Assembly: GCA_916610825.1 (NCBI GenBank)
Contig: OU744446.1
Location: forward strand, 37,735,833 to 37,799,832
Direction: 5' to 3'
Length of the DNA stretch: 64,000 nucleotides
Source: Haliclystus octoradiatus
Taxonomy: Eukaryota > Cnidaria > Staurozoa > Stauromedusae > Haliclystidae
This document shows positions 19,562 to 34,067 of the stretch, in pieces. A program made the translations under genes and the position numbers. Position 1 is the first letter of the stretch. Each line of letters begins with the position of its first letter. The notes beneath the pieces are model-generated. The model had not been told where the DNA came from. It ran no database searches and saw only the letters and a list, made by a program, of their open reading frames with translations.

Positions 19562-22500
19562 TTAATTCTTCAATTGATCAAGAAAATATTCAACATCTGA
19601 TTTTTTCGCTATAGGTGCTGACCACGTGATACTTTGATCTTGCTCAATGCTGATTGGTCCATTGCCGTATTTGATATTAGAGATTGACAGATAATTTAAA
19701 TCTATGCGCCCTGTGAAACAAACATACAAATATACTTAGTAATACAATATTTATTTGACAAACATTTCGGCTTTCGTACGCCTTTGTCTCATTAGACTAT
19801 TACATAGCCACGACATTTAAACTTTTAAAACGGGGAAATAATATATCTGAAACCTTGATCAAAAGTATCAAGATATATTGTTAATTAAAGTTGAGAATGG
19901 GTCTTTTCTTTAAATTATTTATGTAAAATCATTGAAAATCTGCATTCTGAAATTTATGTTTAAGCCATTTAACACGGGAACATTGCACGGGCTAATTTAA
20001 TAAACTAATTTGATGTTCTTGATAATTCGTAAGCATATCCCATTGTATTTAAACGTACCTTTCTCTCTGAAATAGAATTGCGTGACCAAATTCTGTTCAT
20101 TTATAATTAATCTTATTTTAATATAAAATGTCATTGTACAGTTCTACAGCAAGTTAGACCGCATAATTAATTATTAATGTATTTTTAATTATTTATTAGA
20201 CATATTTACTATGACAGATTTAATGTTAGAAAAAAATATTTATTGCAAAGCTATAATCATTGAAAGATTGCTTACTAAAGAGTGGTTGTTTAATAAAATA
20301 AGCTTACTATATAGTTTCTACTAAGTCACACTTATATTTATCAAAACATTGGCGACATTTGCAGTAAATTAATATAATGCCAACAAGTGACAAGATTTGA
20401 ACTCGCAGCAACCCCCGAGTGTCCTCAGAGCCATCTATTTACAAGAGTTGGGACACTCATGCCATTGTTGTTTGTTTTTGCCTGGACCCGAGCACGTTTT
20501 TAACAGTGCGCATGTGCAGGAGAATGTCGTGTGTTTTTCAGCCATATTGTATTGTATTATTTCGCGCGTTTCACTTGAAATGATTGAGAACCTGTTTCCG
20601 AAAGAACAAAGATGGCGTCCAAAAATCACGTGACTAGCATCTGTCCAATTGGAGACGATAGCGGCACATGAAAGCGTATCCCAACTCTTGTAAATAGATG
20701 GCTCTGGGTGTGCTTGGTTAATCAAACGATACAACGACCCAATATTATCTCAATTTCACCAATAAATGCTGAGTTACATGTTTGTCATTTTGCTTCAATC
20801 AACTAAAAGTATATATATATCTTTTACGGATGAATAAATACAAAACTTGATGGTGTCTCCTGATGCTGCCCCATCCGAGTTTTAAAAGTAAGGACCTACA
20901 TCTTCTATTTTTAACTCACCTGATGTGACTGTTAGTTTATATTGCGCACTTCTAGCCGATGATGAATCGTGATGTGCTTCGATTGTACCCATTACACCAG
21001 GTGTATAAAATGGTAGCCGGTATGGTACATCAAATTTTGGTTCAAATGTCAATGTTCCGTTTGGAGCATAATATTGTTGTCCTGACAACGCTAATGGTAC
21101 ATGCCATAATACCAAATGAAATGTATAATGACTAGTAGCCCATGGCAACCCATCTAATCCGTAATGATCAGAAGAAGTAAGACCATGGAAATTCCATTGA
21201 TCTTTTAATGTTGAACGGTAATGATCAAGACTTTTTTCTGCTTGGTGTAAAGCCAGCTTTGGTTGCGTACCTGTGAAATGGACAGTATACATATATAATA
21301 ATGATTGTTATGATGTAGTGTTGCGATGTTGTGTCATTTCCTTTCACTGCGACCACTTTGTATCATTCCCTGTCACCGTGGTCACTTTGTATCATTCCAT
21401 ACACGTACTTTACTTGCGTAATTCTTCTGTTGCCTCGTAGATACTTTTCTTTTAAATTCAACGCACGTCTCTAAGCAGTCATCTTTTGCATGCGAAAGAC
21501 ACTATGCTTGTATTATTGAGATAACGATTTCCTGATCGAGCTATCTAATGGTAACCTAAAATACTCTACGGTCTATAACGCACAAGATGAGAAATTTGCT
21601 TGTGTAACATTCGAGGAAAGTGATTGTAATTTACTTCAATTATGGGGATTGTCTTTGTGATCTGATCCAACAATATTTTTTAACAACAGGGATTATTTTT
21701 ATGCCGTGGAAGGAACATAACTCATTATCTGTATTGCAGATAATAATTCTTATCCCCCCAGAAGCCCTTCTTTTTTCTTACCTAAATATAACTGCAACGT
21801 TGACCAATCGGTACTTGCACTCATCCATATTGACTCAAAACGAGTGACGTTTTCTAGTGATTTACAACCACCAGGTTCATCACCAAGAATCAAGGAAGTA
21901 TCTTCCGGTGTAGCAAGTGCTCTGTCTCCTTTTGACATAACCTATAACAGAAAGATACCCCATTACAAACCATAATTGCTTGTATTCATATAGCTATTGA
22001 ATATGATGGGTTTTTTTTAATTTTTATTTGCTTCTTCAACTTCTATGTGGTATTATCTATCTACATATATAAAATAACGTTATATTGAAAATCTAATCCA
22101 TATTTAAATTTTAAATTAAGCCAAAAAAAATAAATAAAATTTCTTATAAAAAATTCAATTCAGGTGCTAGCTAATGTGTAATAAATGTAGCATAGTTACA
22201 CAGATCTGCAAGAATCGTGCTTTAGCGGAAGGAAACAACCGTCATGCACTGCATATTGTTGGATTCCGCATTAGGGGGACTTGTAACAGAAACTGAGAGC
22301 ACCTGGCTCCAGATCACTCAATGTGCATGCAAGATCACTAACTAATATGTCATATTTGTGATCGTGATTGTAATCTTAATACTAGCCCATTGCTGTACAT
22401 CGACAGTCAAAGTTAGCCGGGCTACAGGCGTTGCGTCGAAAGTCCGATACGCCGAAAGGTCGTTGCGCCGAAAGTCTGTTGCGCTGAATAATGTTTTCGG

Positions 22501-34067: not shown

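Follow-up and report, generated by a model that had tools for sequence, protein, structure and literature searches.

The window analysed here, a stretch of 64,000 nucleotides from the staurozoan Haliclystus octoradiatus, contains a 14-exon gene whose product is probably, as we propose with modest confidence, a secreted retaining glycosidase of new specificity, built on a GH116 scaffold with two inserted PAN modules and a long linker. We favour this reading because the predicted protein matches GH116 and PAN profiles, conserves the catalytic positions, falls into a clade with 100/100 support and is kept out of the two other groups tried by AU tests; because exon 1 resembles a signal peptide, N-glycosylation sequons are in excess and the mature chain stays at or below 1.39 in mean hydrophobicity over 19 residues; and because its nearest relative, the bacterial protein L051, also carries the catalytic Glu and Asp and the equivalents of His1010 and Glu1046.

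The gene lies on the minus strand (34067..19562) and encodes 1463 amino acids in a model rebuilt from the raw sequence, the exons being joined by script. It runs from an ATG at 34067 to a TAA at 19562, with an AATAAA 47 nt past the stop, and all of its 13 introns are GT-AG with consistent phases. The exons are the following, in window coordinates, with the basis of each assignment in brackets.

33995..34067, minus strand: exon 1, start codon and 24 signal-peptide-like residues (gene model; sole filter-passing candidate in 6 kb upstream)
31871..33010, minus strand: exon 2, 380-residue linker rich in Asn, Thr and Asp, without Cys, rich in sequons (gene model, sequon count)
31311..31471, minus strand: exon 3, start of an N-terminal segment common to bacterial relatives, about residues 421-458 (shuffle comparisons)
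30614..30881, minus strand: exon 4, end of the N-terminal segment, then first PAN module (PAN about 30806-30614; PAN_4 above cut-off)
29956..30123, minus strand: exon 5, end of the first PAN module (to about 30065) and start of the GH116 N-domain (gene model, Pfam)
29176..29391, minus strand: exon 6, GH116 N-domain (PF12215, 5.1e-32)
28223..28756, minus strand: exon 7, GH116 N-domain with the weak second PAN module inserted (about 28583-28392; Pfam, insert missing in four bacterial relatives)
27195..27487, minus strand: exon 8, end of the GH116 N-domain and linker to the catalytic domain (gene model, Pfam)
26379..26703, minus strand: exon 9, catalytic domain with Glu999 (26562-26560), His1010 (26529-26527) and Glu1046 (26421-26419) (alignment with TxGH116, the animal's own GBA2 and bacterial rows)
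25677..25832, minus strand: exon 10, catalytic domain, DUF608 stretch from residue 1068 (Pfam)
23326..23723, minus strand: exon 11, catalytic domain with Ile1122 (23694-23692) and Asp1124 (23688-23686) (Pfam, alignment)
21782..21941, minus strand: exon 12, catalytic domain (gene model; colinear with bacterial L050 and L051)
20920..21270, minus strand: exon 13, end of the catalytic domain, Phe1348 at the place of TxGH116 Arg792 (21121-21119; alignment)
19562..19710, minus strand: exon 14, C-terminal segment and stop (gene model; colinear with bacterial C-termini)

The gene lies on a contig of 40 Mb; the genome totals 262 Mb in 33 contigs. Bacterial contamination as the source of the gene was ruled out by the 14 exons, the 40-Mb contig and the animal-type neighbours. 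Three of the six other open reading frames of the window that were scanned have Pfam matches: one to an ion channel, one to a retrotransposon polyprotein and one to a PGA_cap protein. Scans of the window for Rfam families and tRNAs gave no matches. The polyprotein frame (41024-43960, minus strand), with matches to DUF1759, aspartyl protease and DUF5641, is presumably BEL/Pao-like. The PGA_cap domain (1.4e-18; 53451-53810, plus strand), that of a bacterial capsule-synthesis protein, is found here in an animal-type genome. Very long tandem arrays of ATT, ATA or AAAT, with up to about 508 copies, occupy positions 24080-25610, inside intron 10 of the GH116-like gene, 46761-47534, 62904-63239, and 3305-4299, adjoining the ion-channel frame. 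A 33-nt palindrome, 97% complementary, is present in intron 4 (30299-30364), and a pair of 31-nt inverted repeats, 219 nt apart, in intron 13 (20426-20706), which could represent a small insertion of transposon type.

The gene product is most likely a secreted protein, as predicted from its N-terminal part. Exon 1 encodes 24 residues, whose hydrophobic core reaches 2.1 on the Kyte-Doolittle scale over 11 residues, and joins exon 2 (34067-33995 to 33010-31871) in phase. A filter for signal exons (ATG, core of at least 2.0, GTRAG donor, phase 1, 45-160 nt) retained this exon as the only candidate in the 6 kb upstream of exon 2, and five candidates, exon 1 included, on both strands of the whole window, an average of 0.23 for each 6 kb of a single strand. 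The length of exon 2 is 1140 nt. Residues 25-412 contain 11.3% Thr, 9.8% Asn and zero Cys, and hold 15 N-glycosylation sequons for 6.7 expected, a number reached in none of 5000 shuffles; in residues 458-1463 there are 12 sequons for 7.1 in shuffles (203 of 5000 as many). No Pfam match was obtained for residues 25-458. The rebuilt model agrees with a preliminary description of this locus, in which a signal peptide encoded by exon 1 was joined in phase to a 380-residue Asn/Thr-rich stretch, the exon being signal-peptide-like by hydrophobicity and phase. In the mature chain no 19-residue segment exceeds a mean hydrophobicity of 1.39, and therefore no membrane anchor is evident.

It is improbable that exon 1 is spurious and that translation starts from an ATG in exon 2 or elsewhere, yielding a cytosolic, unsecreted protein. 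The junction of exons 1 and 2 is predicted from the genomic sequence, and the nearest bacterial relative, L051, has no evident signal sequence by eye. But a signal-peptide-like exon stands in the right phase where about 0.23 such exons would be expected in 6 kb, sequons are in excess, the PAN modules are rich in Cys, and three other bacterial relatives (L041, L049 and L050) have N-termini that we take to be of twin-arginine, lipoprotein-like type.

In Pfam searches, the Glyco_hydr_116N profile (PF12215) matched residues 587-929 (5.1e-32, 112 bits, cut-off 30.2) and DUF608 (PF04685) matched residues 1068-1232 (4.4e-19, 69 bits, cut-off 26.3); by homology of its N-domain and catalytic domain, the predicted protein belongs to CAZy family GH116. 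PAN_4 matched the whole protein at 2e-8, with 34.6 bits summed over two stretches, the best being 493-555, so that the mosaic of GH116 and PAN domains announced in the preliminary description is indeed seen in the profile search. NCBIfam gave matches only far below cut-off. The description had counted two PAN-type modules. The first, taken alone, is above the cut-off (PAN_4, 27.9 bits for 27). The second, at about residues 734-795, is weak: its PAN_1 score rises from 17.0 bits for the whole protein to 20.1 for exon 7 and 21.8 for the excised module, passing the cut-off of 21.4 in this last case only, and PAN_4 scores 24.2 bits when it is cut out (cut-off 27). A structure model of exon 7 alone, calculated without alignment, has a mean pLDDT of 37.5.

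The modules had been placed one before and one inside the N-domain, which stands for the second; the first is better read as an insertion too, because the short upstream segment, encoded by exons 3-4, shows similarity to the N-termini of three bacterial relatives out of four. When residues 405-484 were compared with the bacterial N-termini, they scored 50 with L051 (1 of 2000 shuffles as high), 46 with L050 (2 of 2000) and 37 with L049 (17 of 2000), and showed no resemblance to L041 (score 27, 553 of 2000). The most likely arrangement is thus that the first PAN module separates an old N-terminal segment from the N-domain and that the second interrupts the N-domain itself. A Pfam scan at E 1 detected PAN in none of the four relatives (L051 being scanned through L073, on the same contig), and the insert at the place of the second module is missing in all four. 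Exon shuffling was considered for the second module and set aside: it is wholly contained in exon 7, so no flanking introns support shuffling.

Two Pfam searches give a count of at least three GH116 genes in this genome, with a separate, canonical-looking GBA2 at C1:2.339-2.357 Mb and a third gene on C2 near 10.56 Mb. This third gene, found in pieces (L018, L019 and L022; C2:10549500-10579200, plus strand), contains CTHVWNYE, NTYD and WNEIECGDHY motifs and falls in the ExoMA2-type branch, that of a bacterial beta-D-arabinofuranosidase, which is unexpected in an animal-type genome. The solved structures nearest by sequence to the window protein, in matches of a four-row profile (A2) to the PDB, are those of ExoMA2 (8ic6, 3.3e-48), then TxGH116 (5bvu, 3.1e-38) and GBA2 (9wiz, 1.4e-26).

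Relatives elsewhere were sought in bacteria. Plasmid records yielded Persicobacter GH116 proteins at 23-29% identity, and a scan of genome contigs yielded 12 confirmed matches in 11 loci, with best segments 22-31% identical. The window protein matched 5 of 296 genomes of a first phylum at E <= 1e-8, among which G259 was much closer (4e-29); in the class of G259, 3 of 244 genomes matched, G259 among them. In a second phylum, profile A2 matched 162 of 251 genomes at 1e-20, G531 reaching 828 bits against 268 for the next genome, and the best 20 loci were fetched. In a third phylum, that of G004, a profile search at E 1e-70, run without a positive control, matched 0 of 120 genomes. The four relatives retained share 28-33% (L041, L049 and L050) and 36% (L051) identity with the window protein, and all score above the Pfam cut-offs, with 88-145 bits for GH116N and 33-95 bits for DUF608. 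A 327-residue frame in G510 (L053), whose C-terminal part aligns with L051, may be a further member of the clade. The neighbours of L041 and the L050 contig include genes presumably for a Gfo/Idh-like oxidoreductase and a sugar-isomerase-like protein, which are too general to name a substrate.

In the alignment, Glu999 and Asp1124 correspond to the catalytic pair of TxGH116, and likewise to the rows of the animal's own GBA2 and of the bacterial proteins. Among the 41 other aligned rows, the Glu999 column holds E in 33, D in 3, A in 2, V in 2 and a gap in 1, and the Asp1124 column holds D in 36; the two residues had been correctly numbered and described as kept in the preliminary description. 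The offsets in TxGH116 from the nucleophile Glu to the Asp, His, Thr and Asp of its motifs (11, 66, 150 and 152) match the published numbers 441, 452, 507, 591 and 593, which supports the catalytic assignment; the numbering of the TxGH116 PDB chain is shifted and the positions were placed by motif. Asp1127 and Asp1129 were considered as acid/base and set aside: phmmer against ExoMA2 paired Asp1127, rather than Asp1124, with the ExoMA2 Asp, but the profile and the 42-row alignment favour Asp1124.

The sugar-binding shell of the -1 subsite, a point missing from the preliminary description, is largely changed. In TxGH116 this shell comprises Asp452, His507, Thr591 and Arg792, according to PMC11375437. 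Asp452 is replaced by His1010, in a column with H in 15 of 41 rows (14 ExoMA2-type rows and L051) and D in 21; His507 is replaced by Glu1046 (H in 23 of 41, E only in L051); Thr591 by Ile1122 (T or S in 35 of 41, T in L051); and Arg792 by Phe1348 (R in 33 of 41, R in L051), this last place being taken from the printed profile alignment and the GBA2 row, as the TxGH116 row does not extend to Arg792. The sugar-binding positions of ExoMA2 are reported in PMC10509167. With respect to its His446/Arg483 signature, His1010 falls in a column that is His in 14 ExoMA2-type rows and blank in the ExoMA2 row itself, and no Arg is present at 1046-1047 (1046 is E and 1047 is S), where the ExoMA2-type Arg aligns in an alignment that is maybe off by one residue. 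Judged from these columns, the window protein keeps the catalytic pair, as does L051, without the usual sugar-holding residues. Four changed sugar-binding positions imply that either the substrate is new or the activity has been lost. In L051 the Glu, the Asp and the equivalents of His1010 and Glu1046 are all present. The nucleophile position is Asp in L041, L049 and L050, and in L050 the acid/base position is occupied by Arg; the clade therefore includes possibly inactive members.

For the phylogeny, the fragments L032 and L053 were excluded first, 42 rows were then aligned, and five of these were dropped before the careful tree: L043 and L044, far outliers without catalytic residues, and L026, L029 and L030, near copies. 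The resulting tree, of 37 rows and 784 columns, groups the window protein with L051, L050, L049 and L041 (100/100), separately from a clade of the own GBA2, TxGH116 and L042 (100/100) and from a clade of 15 ExoMA2-type rows that includes the C2 gene (100/100). Several features call for care in reading this tree: the long end branch of the window protein (1.41), the long L042 row, the odd letter make-up of 13 rows, a GBA2 row with letters in 48% of columns, the joining of the GBA2 and C2 rows from partial pieces, and the missing nucleophile region of the ExoMA2 row. In AU tests, forcing the window protein together with the GBA2 group (own GBA2, TxGH116, L042) was rejected (log-likelihood lower by 103, p 1.4e-70), as was forcing it together with the ExoMA2 group (lower by 144, p 6e-8), a group named after the first tree had been seen. 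Thus the tree places the protein outside both the GBA2/TxGH116 (subfamily 1) and the ExoMA2 (subfamily 4) branches. The order inside its clade is weakly supported (82/27). L055 and L061, two GH116-like bacterial proteins lacking both catalytic residues, with Val at the Glu place and Thr or Ala at the Asp place, join weakly as sisters (82/44) and are possibly a pseudo-enzyme branch.

A tblastn search with the window protein found nothing at E 1 in the own GBA2 region, and one 27-residue piece (5.7e-4) in the region of the C2 gene. A diverged copy of the own GBA2 was ruled out by tblastn, the tree and the AU test. The preliminary description had implied an animal GBA2-type enzyme that gained a signal peptide; this does not fit a protein outside the GBA2/TxGH116 branch in a genome that has a separate GBA2. 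Nor is an extracellular beta-glucosidase or beta-D-arabinofuranosidase of ordinary GH116 specificity a probable reading. ExoMA2 is the closest solved structure by sequence, and His1010 matches the His of those ExoMA2-type rows that have letters there, but the protein is excluded from both branches by the tree, the Asp452 and His507 of TxGH116 have become His1010 and Glu1046, and, as aligned, positions 1046-1047 hold no Arg of the ExoMA2 type.

The main rival to the glycosidase reading, which we consider possible but rather unlikely, is a secreted pseudo-enzyme, in which the GH116 fold would be a glycan-binding or structural module, the catalytic pair would be remnants and the PAN modules would bind. 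The four changes in the -1 subsite speak for it, as do the catalytic changes in L041, L049 and L050, and also in L055 and L061, and the long window branch; correspondingly, Ile1122 and Phe1348 in place of the Thr591 and Arg792 equivalents, the altered sisters and the branch of 1.41 count against a glycosidase. However, the window protein and L051 retain the catalytic pair, and colinear conservation extends beyond the N-domain over the catalytic domain and the C-terminal segment.

Under the glycosidase reading, a soluble, N-glycosylated protein with the GH116 two-domain scaffold, two inserted PAN modules and a long flexible linker would be secreted and would cleave its substrate extracellularly by a retaining mechanism, Glu999 serving as nucleophile and Asp1124 as acid/base. 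Its substrate sugar would differ from the glucose or D-arabinofuranose of characterised GH116 enzymes. PAN modules have roles in protein and glycan binding, and here, together with the linker, they may hold the enzyme on a glycan or protein partner. More tentatively, and as a possibility to which we give less than even weight, there could be a separate GH116 subfamily common to some bacteria and at least one animal, the animal member having become extracellular through the gain of a signal peptide, two PAN insertions and a glycosylated linker, with its pocket rebuilt for a new extracellular glycan. The genome carries no fewer than three GH116 genes, which belong to three branches, and one of these genes appears made for work outside the cell. 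Should its protein be active, it would point to an extracellular glycan target not yet known and to a specificity new to GH116; should it be inactive, it would clearly illustrate how a hydrolase scaffold can be turned to another use in a mosaic extracellular protein.

No secreted, PAN-bearing GH116 protein is named in the titles of the open-licence literature searched; it may already exist as an unnamed prediction in the genomes of other invertebrates. As far as the available part of PMC10509167 goes, ExoMA2 is an exo-beta-D-arabinofuranosidase of Microbacterium (GH116 subfamily 4, PDB 8IC6/8IC7), with no signal sequence, a different -1 subsite and no mention of PAN. The window protein shares with it the GH116 two-domain scaffold, the catalytic Asp in an NTYD motif and a C-terminal segment aligned to the profile end, but belongs to another branch of the tree. 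The TxGH116 beta-glucosidase (PDB 5BVU and others) and animal GBA2, a glucosylceramidase described as made as a soluble cytosolic protein, are of subfamily 1 (PMC11375437). They have the same GH116 N- and C-domains, and Glu441/Asp593 of TxGH116 and Glu527/Asp677 of GBA2 correspond to Glu999/Asp1124; the window protein differs in lying outside their branch and in the changed equivalents of Asp452, His507, Thr591 and Arg792. The bacterial proteins L051, L041, L049 and L050 have no PAN match and no Asn/Thr linker, and three of them have Asp at the nucleophile place, but all four are colinear with the window protein over both domains and the C-terminal segment, and L051, L049 and L050, unlike L041, over the N-terminal segment as well.
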